Assembly (NCBI GenBank): GCA_027036005.1
Contig: JALVTJ010000077.1
Location: 10,064-60,902 of the forward strand
Direction: 5' to 3'
Origin: Nautiliaceae bacterium
Lineage (GTDB): Bacteria; Campylobacterota; Campylobacteria; Campylobacterales; Nautiliaceae
Length of the DNA: 50,839 nt
Shown piece by piece: positions 43,373-49,144 of this stretch (within the stretch, counting starts at the first letter, position 1; each line of letters opens with the position of its first letter). The notes beneath the pieces are model-generated. The model was not told the origin of the DNA and made no database searches. It worked only from the letters and a program-made list of their open reading frames with translations. A program made the translations under genes and the position numbers.

Positions 43373-44151
43373 TAAAATTCTATAAGCCCTTCAAGCGGAG
43401 AAGAAGCACTTGCATAAGGTTTTTTAGGTATTCTTCCAGCTTTATATGCCGCTCTTCCGGCTAAAACGGCGTATTTCATAGCTTCTGCCATTGCAATAGG
43501 ATTTTTGGCCTGAGCTATTGCGGTGTTTGTAAGCACCCCGTCAGCCCCAAGCTCCATTGCCACTGCGGCATCGCTTGCGGTTCCAATTCCTGCATCCACA
43601 ATTACGGGCACATTTACGGCATCTTTTATGAATACTACATTATATCTGTTTTGAACTCCAAGACCGCTTCCAATAGGCGCAGCAAGAGGCATAACTGCGG
43701 AAGCTCCGGCATTTTCAAGCCTTTTTGCCATAATAGGATCGTCATTTGTATAAGCAAGAACCGTAAAATCTTCTTTTGCCAACACTTCACACGCTTTAAG
43801 CGTTTCCATTACATCCGGATAAAGAGTTTTCGCCGTGTCTCCTATTATTTCAAGTTTAATAATATCAATCCCCACAGCCTCCCTTACAAGTCTAAAAAGC
43901 GTAATAGCTTCATCGGCTTTTGTGCAGCCTGCGGAATTAGGTAGGATTTGAACATCGGTATCCTTAAAATAATCCATTAAATTTTCTTCATTCGGATCAG
44001 TTATATTTACTCTTCTTACAGCTACCGTAATCATTTCCGCACCGCTTGCCAAAGTAGCATCTCTTGTAATTTCGAAATCAGGATATTTCCCGCTACCTAC
44101 TATAAGTCTGCTTGTAAAGTCATATTTTCCTATTTTTAAAATATCACTCAT
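43372..44151 (-). CDS. thiG: thiazole synthase ThiG
   Basis: ThiG builds the thiazole phosphate of thiamine from deoxyxylulose phosphate, dehydroglycine and ThiS-thiocarboxylate. The 259-residue TIM barrel has the family opening [15 protein letters not shown] near 9 and the Lys in I-K-L-E-I near 105. P-N-S-A-G-C and D-A-G-I-G are also seen. The ATG at 44151 overlaps the livM stop (ATGA). Other thi genes are absent here. Confidence 0.93.
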
Positions 44152-45230
44152 TTTCCTCTCCTTATTTTCACATAATCCCAAATTTCTTTATTCCCGAAAA
44201 ATCCTCGTCTTGCAAAAAGCATAATCAAAAGCAAAAGCACGCTAAACACTACCATTCTAAGCCCAGGAATTCCGTGAATAAATCCTATATGCCATGTCGC
44301 ATCGTCAAGAGGTCTTAATAATTCCATTCCTCCCAAAAATAAAAACGCTCCGAGTATACTTCCACTCATACTTCCAAGACCTCCCAAAACTATAATTATC
44401 AAAAGCTGGAATGTTAACATAAAAGTAAACTGATCGGGACTGATTGAACCGATTGAACTTGCCAAAAGTCCGCCCCCGACACCTTCAAAAAACGCACTTG
44501 TCATAAAAGCCAAAGTTTTTGTTTTGAATGTATTGACACCCATCGCAAGAGCAGCGTCTTCATCATCACGAACGGCTTTCATAGCTCTTCCGAATTTTGA
44601 ATAAACAATATTATATACCAAAATAACAGTTACCAAACAAGTAACTCCTATCCAAAAATAACTTGCAAATCCCGGAATTGAATCAAGCCCCATAGAACCA
44701 TTTGAAATTTCAGGATTATTTATAAGAAAAATTCTAATAATAAACCCAAATCCAAGTGTTACAATTGCCAAATAATCACCTCTTACCCTGAACACCGGAA
44801 AAGCAAGCGTTAATGCAAGGAGTGAAGAGACTATTCCGCTAATTACCAAGACTAAAAAAGGATTAAAAGGCACGTTAGGATTTAAAAATACGTCTCTTAT
44901 AAGAGGCAAGGGAGGCGTAAGCATATATAATTCGCTTTTTATTTCCGGAGAAAGCAGCAAAATCGCCGTTACATAAGCCCCAATTGCTACAAATCCGTTG
45001 GGTTCAAGCGAAAATTGTCCCGCCACACCGTTTATTAAATTATAACTTATTGCCAAAATTATAAAAATATAAATATTGCCCAAAACCGTCAGAGTATATG
45101 AACCGAATATATGAGGAGAAAAAAATAAAAATACCAAAAAAGCAACTGTAACAGCCGCAATTAACATAAAATATCCAATGGCTTCATTTATAATTTTTAC
45201 ATTTTTAATTTTCAATTTTACTTTTTCCAT
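44148..45230 (-). CDS. livM: branched-chain amino acid ABC transporter permease LivM
   Basis: LivM is one of two membrane subunits for uptake of Leu/Ile/Val or related amides. The 360-residue protein has about nine to ten helices. The EAA loop region appears as [17 protein letters not shown] near residue 216. Two bases separate it from livH. Confidence 0.94.
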
Positions 45231-45232
45231 TA

Positions 45233-46174
45233 TTAAAACCTTTGTCTTTCAAAATCAATTCCCATAATACCAGTAGGTCTGAAAAGCAAAACGAAAATTA
45301 ATAAAATAAATGCAAAAGCATCTTTCCAACCCCCAAGTTCCGGGAAAAATCCAGGAATTGCAACTTCTGCAAATCCGAGAATAAATCCTCCTATCACAGC
45401 ACCCGTAACACTTCCGATACCTCCAACAACAGCAGCCGCAAACGCTTTAAGACCAACAAGCATTCCCATATAAGGATCTATGCTCGGATAAGCCATGGCA
45501 AAAGAAACACCACCTATTGCGGCAAGAGCTGAACCAAGCGCAAATACAAAACCAATAATAATATTTGAATTTGCACCCATAAGTTTAACGGTATAAATAT
45601 CAAAAGCCAAAGCTCTAATGGCAATTCCTATTTTTGTTCTGTATAAAATATATAAAAGTAAAAGTAATAACAATATGGTAAGAACGGGAACAATAATTGT
45701 CAAAACCGGAATCGTTAAACTTCCTATATGCAGAATTGTTGAAAACCATTTTGGAAAATAAAATGCCTGATATGTTCCTCCAAGATATTGATTTGCTATA
45801 ACATTAAATAGACTTTCGAGAAAAAACGAAATACCGATAGCCGTAATCAAAAGCGAAATTTTAGGAGCACCCTTATCAAGAAGTGGCTTATATGCGATTA
45901 CATGCGTTAATATTCCCACAATAGCGGTTAAAACAATAGAAATCGCAACGGCAGTAAAAAACATTCCCATGGAAATATCTTTAAAAGTCCAGTGCGTAAA
46001 AATACCTACAAAAATAAAAGCCAAAAAAGCTCCCACCATCATAATATCGCCGTGTGCAAAATTAATTAATCTAAGCACTCCATAAACCAGCGTATAACCT
46101 ATTGCAATAAGCGCATACATACTCCCAAGCGAAAAACCGTTAATGACTTGTTGCAAAACAAATCCGACATCCAT
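45233..46174 (-). CDS. livH: branched-chain amino acid ABC transporter permease LivH
   Basis: LivH is the partner permease. The 313-residue protein opens with V-I-N-G-F-S-L-G-S-M-Y-A-L-I-A-I-G-Y, diagnostic for the family. It has about eight helices and the A-I-R-A-L-A-F-D loop near 186. The ATPases LivG and LivF are not in this window, so the transporter depends on genes elsewhere. Confidence 0.94.
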   Translation of the reverse strand: MDVGFVLQQVINGFSLGSMYALIAIGYTLVYGVLRLINFAHGDIMMVGAFLAFIFVGIFTHWTFKDISMGMFFTAVAISIVLTAIVGILTHVIAYKPLLDKGAPKISLLITAIGISFFLESLFNVIANQYLGGTYQAFYFPKWFSTILHIGSLTIPVLTIIVPVLTILLLLLLLYILYRTKIGIAIRALAFDIYTVKLMGANSNIIIGFVFALGSALAAIGGVSFAMAYPSIDPYMGMLVGLKAFAAAVVGGIGSVTGAVIGGFILGFAEVAIPGFFPELGGWKDAFAFILLIFVLLFRPTGIMGIDFERQRF

Positions 46175-46216: not shown

Positions 46217-47863
46217 TTAACAAATTACTTTGTTTCTGCCGCTTTTTTTGGCAATATAGAGTTTTTTATCCGCATTTTCTAATAAATTTTTTAAATTATC
46301 TTTTTCATTTATTTCATAAACACCGCTACTGATTGTTATTTTTATATGCTTTTTTCTGCAAAAAATATAATTTTCAATCTCTTTTCTGAACTCCTCAATT
46401 CTTTTACATGCGTCTTTCAATTTGCTAAAAGGCAGAATAATTACAAATTCTTCACCTCCATATCTTATGGCGACATCGGAACCTCTGAAAAACTCTTTCA
46501 TTATTTTACCTATTTCTTTTAAAACACAATCCCCTATCAAATGCCCATTTTTATCGTTTACTTTCTTAAAAAAATCTATATCTATTAAAGCAATACTTAA
46601 CGGAAAATGATATCTTTTGGCTTCCAATATTTTTTTATTCAAATATTCTTCCATAAATTCTCTATTATAAAGTTCTGTTAAATTATCCGTAATAGCTCTT
46701 TTGTGAAAAAATTTATTTCTTTTTTTCAATACTATAAACATTATTTCTTTTTCTAATGAAACAGTTAAAGGAGATATAATATGTTTTAAAAGCAAATTTA
46801 GAAATTTTTCTTCTTCTTGCGTAAGTTTATCTCCCATATAAATATTAAGCTCTCCTGTTTTTTTGTTTTTTTCGTTATAAAGATATTTTGTAATTAAAAA
46901 AAACTCTTCTTCATTTTCATTTGTTTTAAAATCATCGTATTCGAAACATATTTTATTGTTTGTTAATAAGGATTTTCCGCATATTCTTATCTTTTTTAAT
47001 TTTTTAAGATTATGTTTTATGTGATAAAACAGATTTTCCAAAACAATTTCAAATTCAGAATGTGAAATAATATCATTTATAAAATGTTTACACACTTCTT
47101 CTGTAGTCATTAGAATTTTAATATCGCTTACTTTTTCATCCATAAGATAAAGTCCGCAATCCAAATCTTTTAATTTTTTAATCAAAGGATTTATAATTTC
47201 TTTTTTGATAATACTTCCATGCTGAGGGGCTATTATTTTGAGATTTTTCTTTTCTATATGTTTCAAAGCGTTTTGCAAAACCGTTTTGCAAGGAATATAG
47301 TGTTCATGGAAAAGTTTGGCATATTCGAAATACTCCTCCACGCTTTTTGCAAAAAGTTCAAATTCAGGCATAAAAGCACCAAACAAATCGCTAGAAAACA
47401 AAACGCCGCTTTTTTTATCATACGTGCAAAACGCTCCGGGAAAATGTGCATAAGGAGTAAAAACAAATTCAAGTTCCCGCTCACCCGCTTTTAATTTCCA
47501 ATCGTTTTTATCCACAAGATAAAAAGGTGTTTTCCATTGATTGTGTTTAAGAAGCGTTTCGCTTCTGTAATGTGTTACGATATATCTCTCGCCTTGTGGG
47601 AATAATTTTTCAAGAGTGGAATAACATCCGGTAATGTCGGGGTCTTGATGATGCATAATAATATATTTGATATCTTTCAAAGGCACAACCGAAGTGATTT
47701 TTTCATGCACAACCGGAAAAGTTATCATACTGCCCGGATCAATCAAAATAGATTCATCTCCGTTTTTTATCAAATAGACATGACACTGAAAAGGGTCATC
47801 TTCAATTACATAACCTACCCAAAAAACATCAGGTGCAATTTCAATAGCCTTCAAATAATCCAT
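46217..47863 (-). CDS. diguanylate cyclase with N-terminal oxygen-binding diiron-type (MBL/ODP) domain
   Basis: This 548-residue cytoplasmic protein should make c-di-GMP in response to oxygen or redox state. Residues about 1-240 form a metallo-beta-lactamase fold like the diiron part of flavodiiron proteins: H-H-Q-D-P-D near 70, A-H-F-P-G near 137, S-S-D near 156 and Q-H-G near 214 supply the usual ligands. The middle region (about 250-380) is unrecognised. The C-terminal GGDEF domain has an intact R-Y-G-G-E-E-F near 467 and an R-x-x-D inhibitory site five residues before it. The gene lies between livK and livH. Confidence 0.87.
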   Translation of the reverse strand: MDYLKAIEIAPDVFWVGYVIEDDPFQCHVYLIKNGDESILIDPGSMITFPVVHEKITSVVPLKDIKYIIMHHQDPDITGCYSTLEKLFPQGERYIVTHYRSETLLKHNQWKTPFYLVDKNDWKLKAGERELEFVFTPYAHFPGAFCTYDKKSGVLFSSDLFGAFMPEFELFAKSVEEYFEYAKLFHEHYIPCKTVLQNALKHIEKKNLKIIAPQHGSIIKKEIINPLIKKLKDLDCGLYLMDEKVSDIKILMTTEEVCKHFINDIISHSEFEIVLENLFYHIKHNLKKLKKIRICGKSLLTNNKICFEYDDFKTNENEEEFFLITKYLYNEKNKKTGELNIYMGDKLTQEEEKFLNLLLKHIISPLTVSLEKEIMFIVLKKRNKFFHKRAITDNLTELYNREFMEEYLNKKILEAKRYHFPLSIALIDIDFFKKVNDKNGHLIGDCVLKEIGKIMKEFFRGSDVAIRYGGEEFVIILPFSKLKDACKRIEEFRKEIENYIFCRKKHIKITISSGVYEINEKDNLKNLLENADKKLYIAKKSGRNKVIC

Positions 47864-47879
47864 AATTTACCTTTATATA

Positions 47880-47920
47880 AATGTTGAATTATGCATTACA
47901 AAAAAACATAATTCAACATT
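47880..47920 (-). repeat. long perfect inverted repeat between livK and the diguanylate cyclase gene
   Basis: AATGTTGAATTATG (47880-47893) pairs perfectly with CATAATTCAACATT (47907-47920), a 14-base stem with a 13-base loop. In the minus-strand transcript it lies between livK and the ribosome-binding site of the next gene. With the adjacent smaller hairpin it may stabilise livK mRNA or reduce read-through. Confidence 0.7.
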
Positions 47921-47923
47921 CAA

Positions 47924-47937
47924 TCCCCGAAAGGGGA
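47924..47937 (-). terminator. GC-rich hairpin just after livK
   Basis: TCCCC (47924-47928) and GGGGA (47933-47937) form a tight stem with a four-base loop, seven bases beyond the livK stop. No T run follows at once in the minus direction, so it is at best a partial terminator or a 3'-end stabiliser. Confidence 0.45.
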
Positions 47938-47944
47938 GAAAAAT

Positions 47945-49081
47945 TTACGGTTTTACAAGTTCGACAAACTCTGTTTTACCGTTTACGATTTTTTCTATAA
48001 CAGCCGGTTTGTCAATCGGAGTTCCAGTTTTAGGATCTATTGTAAGATATCCTGTAACAGCTTCAAGATGTTTTGTGTGTCTAATCGCATTTGCCATACA
48101 TTGTTTCAAACTACTCAAAGTTTTGTTTGCAGGAGTATCGCATTCTTTTGCTGCATTATAAATTACAAGATAAGCGTCTGCGCCTGTTGCTGCAAATGCA
48201 CTAGGTTCTCTATTGTATTTTGCTTTAAATTCTTTGATGAATTTTGCTGAAAGAGGTGTAGGCGCTTTTGCAGGATCGAAATGATCCGTATACATTACAC
48301 CATTTGCGGCACTTCCAGCAAGTTTTTTAAGCAGCCCCGGATCCGCGATTCCGTCTCCCCCCATTACAGGAGCTTTTACTCCAGCAGCCCTAAGTTGTCT
48401 TAAAAACAATCCTTCCTCAGGAGCATATATCGGAGTATATACAAATTTAGGATGCAATCTTTTAATTTGAGCAACTTGTGCATTAAAGTCTTTATCTCCC
48501 GTATTTATAAACAAAAGTTTCAAAATTTTTCCTCCGCCTTTTTTATATGCTTTTTCAAATGCTTTTGCAAGACCAACTGAATAATCCTGTTTCATATCAA
48601 AAACAACAACCGCGTTATTTAAACCGTGTTTAAGAGCATATGTTGCGGCGACTTTTCCTTGAAAAGGATCTGTAAAACAAGTTCTGCTTACATATTTCGT
48701 TCCCATTGTAACTCTCGGATTTGTTGCGATTTGGGTAACGGTAGGTGTTTTTGTGCTGTCTGCAAATCTTTTGATAGCAAGAGACATAGAACTTGCAAGC
48801 GGTCCTTCCACTGCTGCTACCTTGTTATCTGACACAAGTCTTTTATAACCGTTAACTGTTTGTATTTTATCAAACTGATTATCAACTACAACCAACTTGA
48901 TTTTATCTCCGTTTGGAAGTGTGGAATATTTTGAATGAATTAAATTAATTCCATCAAGAGTCTTTTGCCCGAATGATGCAATCGGACCTGTCAAAGGCTG
49001 AAGAACACCTATCTTTATCTCTTTCGCCATCAATGTTGAGGCTACCAAAGCACTTAATCCTAAAACCATCAACTTTTTCAT
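47945..49081 (-). CDS. livK: branched-chain amino acid ABC transporter substrate-binding protein
   Basis: This 378-residue periplasmic protein captures the amino acid for LivHM. A signal peptide (1-19, cut after M-A) precedes I-K-I-G-V-L-Q-P-L-T-G-P near 22. The type I periplasmic fold continues with G-P-L-A-S-S near 93 and G-D-G-I-A-D-P near 243. It is first in the run and has a strong promoter. Members of this family also bind urea, amides or aromatic compounds, so the substrate is open. Confidence 0.92.
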   Translation of the reverse strand: MKKLMVLGLSALVASTLMAKEIKIGVLQPLTGPIASFGQKTLDGINLIHSKYSTLPNGDKIKLVVVDNQFDKIQTVNGYKRLVSDNKVAAVEGPLASSMSLAIKRFADSTKTPTVTQIATNPRVTMGTKYVSRTCFTDPFQGKVAATYALKHGLNNAVVVFDMKQDYSVGLAKAFEKAYKKGGGKILKLLFINTGDKDFNAQVAQIKRLHPKFVYTPIYAPEEGLFLRQLRAAGVKAPVMGGDGIADPGLLKKLAGSAANGVMYTDHFDPAKAPTPLSAKFIKEFKAKYNREPSAFAATGADAYLVIYNAAKECDTPANKTLSSLKQCMANAIRHTKHLEAVTGYLTIDPKTGTPIDKPAVIEKIVNGKTEFVELVKP

Positions 49082-49116: not shown

Positions 49117-49144
49117 ATTATAGCAAAAAATAACAATTTGACAA
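49117..49144 (-). promoter_or_regulatory. sigma-70 promoter of livK
   Basis: On the minus strand TTGTCA (49144-49139) and TATAAT (49122-49117) are 16 bases apart, 35 bases before the livK ATG. The same 75-base gap must also hold the divergent serS promoter. Confidence 0.6.

Follow-up and report, generated by a model that had tools for sequence, protein, structure and literature searches.

A predicted ODP-type diiron sensor fused to a GGDEF domain, encoded between livK and livHM in Nautiliaceae

The gene that lies between livK and livHM in a deep-branching, vent-type bacterium of the Nautiliaceae encodes a protein that probably combines a cytosolic diiron sensor of the ODP type with an active diguanylate cyclase subject to product inhibition, the two being connected by a GAF-like domain and a coiled signalling helix. 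The gene was found in a stretch of 50,839 nucleotides (GenBank assembly GCA_027036005.1, contig JALVTJ010000077.1, positions 10,064 to 60,902), the whole of which is referred to here as the window. The evidence comes from domain matches, conserved metal ligands, a structural model, and a comparison of relatives both within the family and in many other phyla.

Domain architecture

The features of the gene and its product, in window coordinates, are:

46217..47863, minus strand: ODP - GAF-like - helix - GGDEF protein, an open reading frame of 548 amino acids with an ATG start
47129..47863, minus strand: ODP domain (metallo-β-lactamase (MBL) fold, predicted diiron), residues 1-245; PF19583, E 2.2e-59; AF2 model compared with ODP crystal structures
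47780..47785, minus strand: Cys27-His28, invariant in fused ODPs
47633..47650, minus strand: first metal motif HQDPDI, residues 72-77, with the same HQDPD as the solved ODPs
47444..47446, minus strand: His140, predicted ligand from alignment conservation
47387..47389, minus strand: Asp159, predicted ligand from alignment conservation
47219..47221, minus strand: His215, predicted ligand from alignment conservation
46823..47128, minus strand: putative GAF-like middle domain, residues about 246-347, from the AF2 order (helix, helix, four strands) and structural matches
46691..46819, minus strand: long signalling helix, residues 349-391, from AF2
46217..46690, minus strand: GGDEF diguanylate cyclase domain, residues 392-548 and stop; PF00990, E 1.7e-42
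46475..46486, minus strand: inhibitory site RGSD, residues 460-463
46445..46459, minus strand: active-site GGEEF, residues 469-473

In a Pfam search of the 548-residue protein, the ODP family PF19583 spans residues 25-216 with a score of 201.1 bits against a curated cut-off of 27.2, and the parent lactamase family is matched as well. The GGDEF match covers residues 390-545. This domain has D428, D430, K433, N436 and D437 as well as GGEEF, and the RxxD sequence (R460-G-S-D463) is at the spacing of an I-site, five residues before GGEEF. The original prediction had described an MBL domain of the oxygen-binding type and an intact cyclase with an RxxD site, with no flavin domain present. The reading frame, the Pfam matches (which include no flavodoxin domain) and the motifs all bear this out; what it overlooked is a third domain of about 100 residues between the other two.

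The structure of the protein was predicted with AF2 from an alignment of 56 sequences, a single-sequence prediction having been discarded at a pLDDT of 36.9. The mean pLDDT is 93.1, and the pTM of 0.64 makes the relative placement of the domains uncertain. Structure prediction had been put forward with the original prediction as a check on it, and the sensor part of the model does match ODP crystal structures: Foldseek aligns the N-terminal part with 6qwo, 6qrq and 6r9n at TMt values of 0.76-0.84. The last of these entries is titled 'Peroxy diiron species of chemotaxis sensor ODP'. Residues 248-345 are modelled as two helices and four strands, and are followed by the long helix. Together, the middle and C-terminal parts match phytochrome- or GAF-linked (GAF/PHY-GGDEF) cyclases over approximately 340-410 columns, with a large overall rmsd; 4zmu is a GAF-GGDEF protein of this kind. 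We infer that the middle region forms a GAF-like domain, and the name is qualified because the Pfam family GAF_2 is found in just two of the 56 relatives and not in the window's protein itself.

Metal ligands

The first metal motif reads M-H-H-Q-D-P-D-I-T-G (residues 70-79). Across the 56 full-length homologues aligned, H72, D74, D76, H140, D159 and H215 are invariant, and the last three are the later ligands, which the original prediction had described as kept. Of the solved sequences, those of the ODPs (6qrq/6qwo and 6qnm/6r9n) are nearest to the sensor domain, and every flavodiiron protein (FDP) ranks below them. Alignment with 6qrq and 6qnm gives the ODP order of ligands, that is HQDPD without the second His of FDPs, followed by His, Asp and His. 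Both solved ODP sequences read HQDPDV, HQDPDI is nearly invariant among 80 relatives from many phyla, and the norm for ODPs is HQDPD with V, I or L as the next residue.

The FDP ligands are His, Glu, Asp, His, His, Asp and His, of which Glu85 and His88 (C. difficile numbering) correspond to Asp and Ile in the present protein (PMC6033852). The flavodiiron pattern H-x-E-x-D-H with a flavodoxin domain is therefore not what is found; the sequence is H-x-D-x-D-I. The letters given in the original prediction, and its reading of Asp and Ile relative to flavodiiron proteins, were right, but the ligands are not unusual, the substitutions being typical of the solved ODPs and of the 80 relatives. The flavodiiron ligand set is the wrong yardstick for this motif.

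The fused ODPs carry a further conserved pair of residues. Every one of the 56 aligned ODP-GGDEF proteins has Cys-His at positions 27-28, as do the ODP-histidine kinases examined. The pair is absent from the solved ODPs and from almost all single-domain ODPs examined, which mostly have Val-Asn or Thr-Asn (that of T. maritima included), while one single-domain ODP (L103) has Cys-Asn. Since Cys27-His28 is present in the fused ODPs, their metal site may differ from that of the solved ones.

This bears on the first alternative to an oxygen-responsive diiron sensor, namely that what the ODP domain detects is the supply of iron or the overall redox state, or that it holds another metal such as zinc, and that it steers the cyclase accordingly. 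Structure 6qwo, of the T. maritima ODP reconstituted with zinc, demonstrates that zinc can fill the site, and iron and zinc are indistinguishable from the sequence. The title of the T. denticola study, as cited in PMC7666581 and PMC9665402, calls ODP an Fe(II) and oxygen sensor, and the invariant Cys-His is an addition of the fused subfamily. Every diiron ligand position of the O2-binding ODPs is nevertheless kept, and we regard this alternative as possible, if rather doubtful.

Distribution of ODP fusions

GTDB genomes were searched with an alignment of the ODP domain, which gave 80 loci in many phyla. A GGDEF domain stands behind the ODP domain in at least 75 of the 80, most of these being full-length fusions; among the remainder three are cut off where their contig ends, and a fourth, L179, is a short open reading frame. 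GGEEF and RxxD are intact in most relatives, as in the window's protein, and fusions of ODP to histidine kinases exist in the same phylum.

The ODPs of T. denticola and T. maritima are known from Muok et al. 2019 (as cited in PMC7666581, PMC7319448 and PMC9665402), and according to the accessible text of PMC7319448, fusions of ODPs to signal-transduction domains were described in the 2019 ODP study. We found no paper that joins ODP, di-iron or flavodiiron with GGDEF, and no published purification or assay of any ODP-GGDEF protein. The gene is thus a further case of a known architecture, because ODP fusions to signalling domains have been reported and none with GGDEF biochemistry was found. The fusion of ODP to signalling domains is widespread and is already recognised in outline. 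A term search for 'ODP' in a 2022 review that presents its survey of c-di-GMP stimuli and receptors as comprehensive gave no mention, though ODP-GGDEF proteins occur in so many phyla.

Genomic context

The neighbouring features in the window are:

44148..45230, minus strand: livM permease (Pfam)
45233..46174, minus strand: livH permease (Pfam)
47878..47922, minus strand: second stem-loop after livK, long and A+T-rich, just upstream of the ODP-GGDEF start
47924..47937, minus strand: first stem-loop after livK, UCCCC-UUUC-GGGGA
47945..49081, minus strand: livK, branched-chain amino-acid binding protein (Peripla_BP_6, 2.8e-44)
49117..49144, minus strand: livK promoter-like site, TTGTCA-16-TATAAT with TG, 11 of 12 consensus matches

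The order on this one strand is livK, ODP-GGDEF, livH, livM and then thiG, so that the gene does split livK from livHM, as had been noted. The genes livG and livF lie outside this cluster, on another contig of the same genome, where the stop of livF and the start of the next gene, for a membrane diguanylate cyclase, overlap (L192:1-1496). Of 21 genomes of the family, three share this overlap: the present one and two others of its genus.

The position after livK, which we call the slot, was surveyed in the 19 Nautiliaceae genomes that have livH; a survey of operon context in relatives had accompanied the original prediction as a check. An intact ODP-GGDEF gene follows livK in five, belonging to two genera (the window, G006, G011, G014 and G016). 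Four have a full-length but degenerate homologue (G008, G012, G018 and G019) and one a remnant (G013); these are from two further genera. The slot is empty in eight, and in the last (G015) there is a PAS gene alone, beside a divergent liv set. The remnant (L080:4354-4980, 208 residues) consists of approximately residues 11-29, 235-307 and 432-548 of the window's protein, joined in one frame. Orthologues are found away from liv in G015, G018, G019, G032 and G042, the last adjoining a cluster that by eye resembles a chemotaxis cluster. Among the 80 loci, none outside the Nautiliaceae has liv neighbours, and a general association with liv is rejected. The liv placement is an association specific to the Nautiliaceae, with repeated loss, and there is no general functional tie to amino-acid uptake. 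The suggestion that c-di-GMP is made alongside amino-acid uptake survives as a local feature of the Nautiliaceae slot and fails as a general link, the slot itself varying within the family.

It is worth adding that single-PAS genes sit in the liv slot of some relatives (L034:8812-9243, L050:6569-7462 and L081:4673-5122), and the slot therefore recurrently carries sensory genes. Separately, at L032:6333-9079 (G019) an ODP-GGDEF gene directly follows the gene for a DctP-type solute-binding protein, a second pairing with a binding protein.

Two consecutive stem-loops lie between livK and the slot gene in all nine genomes with a full-length slot gene, with z values of -3.0 to -6.6 against dinucleotide shuffles of the 110 bases after the livK stop. 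Seven of the eight empty slots give no stem-loop signal, the exception being G009 (z -6.7), and the remnant in G013 likewise gives none by the shuffle z measure; the counts of nine and eight genomes are not independent, as the species are related. The stem sequences differ between species, and in each of two genus-level sets compensatory changes are seen, at one pair in the first set and at three in the second. An Rfam scan of the window found tRNAs alone. We rejected the idea that the ODP gene itself carries the stem-loop, which is absent upstream of ODP-GGDEF at six non-liv loci. The simplest reading is that the stem-loops provide insulation or processing that keeps the sensor low beside an abundant binding protein.

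It might still be proposed that the ODP-GGDEF protein serves branched-chain amino-acid uptake, its c-di-GMP regulating the Liv transporter or being regulated with it. The presence of the intact gene in the slot of five genomes from two genera, the degenerate homologue or remnant in two more genera, the cyclase gene overlapping livF and the DctP pairing in one relative would all fit such a role; they have to be set against the eight empty slots, the five genomes with orthologues elsewhere, the confinement of liv neighbours to one family, the stem-loops that separate the gene from livK, and the restriction of the livGF-cyclase pairing to three genomes. On balance we consider a role in uptake unlikely.

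Degenerate homologues

The four degenerate homologues (L051:5344-6846, L049:5989-7494, L077:2682-4160 and L050:5004-6521), here called twins, occupy the same slot between livK and livH and group as a single clade on a long stem (2.35 changes per column). In all four, H72 has become Asn, D74 Glu, and both H140 and H215 Tyr, and the Cys27-His28 pair is lacking. GGEEF is lost in all four, and of 29 near-invariant GGDEF columns only four are kept throughout. Their PF19583 scores are 114-120 bits. R460 and D463 of the RxxD site are retained in all four, a pattern noticed after the fact, and these two residues are not fully invariant even in the intact set.

The twins are full-length open reading frames of 492-505 amino acids in four genomes, and dN is 0.30-0.40 against a dS above 1.4, which suggests constraint although dS is saturated; for these reasons a pseudogene reading was rejected. 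Because the metal ligands and the cyclase motif are lost and RxxD is kept, the twins may be c-di-GMP receptors. A broader proposal combines two parts: that the fused ODPs are a chemically distinct sensor class in which Cys27-His28 modifies the diiron site, and that in one Nautiliaceae lineage the copy in the liv operon lost its metal and its catalytic activity and kept RxxD alone, which converted a maker of c-di-GMP into a receptor at a transporter locus. We offer this tentatively and consider it rather unlikely. The slot amounts to a natural experiment, in which a single locus is found with the sensor-cyclase intact, with a twin that is dead in both its parts, with a remnant, or empty.

Proposed mechanism

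We return to the preferred reading, a diiron sensor that controls a diguanylate cyclase. The steps that we infer for the window's protein, namely iron binding, a response to O2 or Fe(II), relay of the signal by the helix, an active cyclase and the sense in which it is controlled, would run as follows. The MBL-fold domain would bind two irons through H72, D74, D76, H140, D159 and H215. Iron occupancy or the O2/redox state would be the input, with a diferrous site oxidised as in the T. denticola ODP, for which a peroxo or diferric product is described. The input would alter the geometry of the dimer through the GAF-like domain and the helix of residues 349-391, and this geometry would decide whether the two GGDEF domains meet and produce c-di-GMP, with RxxD supplying feedback inhibition.

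The genome has a c-di-GMP toolkit of about ten GGDEF loci, eight EAL and one PilZ. N. profundicola, a related species from vents, is described as strictly anaerobic and as needing to detect oxygen (PMC2628731). If the ODP-GGDEF proteins are cyclases gated by O2 or iron, oxygen would be able to set c-di-GMP through them as well as through hemerythrins and haem sensors.

Comparison with known systems

Flavodiiron proteins resemble the ODP-GGDEF protein in the MBL fold (similarity of approximately 1e-12 to 1e-13) and in having a dimetal site like the one predicted here, but a catalytic O2/NO reductase core incidentally fused to GGDEF is highly improbable, and we reject identity with such an enzyme, given that two ligand positions differ, that no flavodoxin or other electron-donor domain is present, and that ODPs match far better.

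The closest known proteins are the ODPs of T. denticola (6qnm, 6r9n) and T. maritima (6qrq, 6qwo), which have the same Pfam family, HQDPD, the same later ligands and no flavin domain, and are the best structural match of the N-terminal part. These solved ODPs are stand-alone proteins, that of T. denticola being coupled to a chemoreceptor, whereas the ODP-GGDEF protein adds the GAF-like domain, the GGDEF domain and Cys27-His28. The fusions of the 2019 survey have the same kind of architecture; GGDEF is not named as a partner in the accessible text of PMC7319448, and the liv placement is particular to the Nautiliaceae. The twins resemble PelD (PMC2170427), a c-di-GMP receptor with a GGDEF-like fold that has lost the GGDEF motif and kept RxxD. 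They differ in having an ODP-derived N-terminus, and in being encoded in a transporter operon where PelD belongs to a polysaccharide operon, and their binding is putative.

A hemerythrin is a four-helix bundle, a fold unrelated to that of the MBL-fold ODP sensor. Diiron control of a cyclase nevertheless has a precedent in a protein with a hemerythrin sensor, VcBhr-DGC of Vibrio cholerae, which is O2-responsive and, like the arrangement proposed here, couples a non-heme diiron centre to a diguanylate cyclase (PMC8846402).
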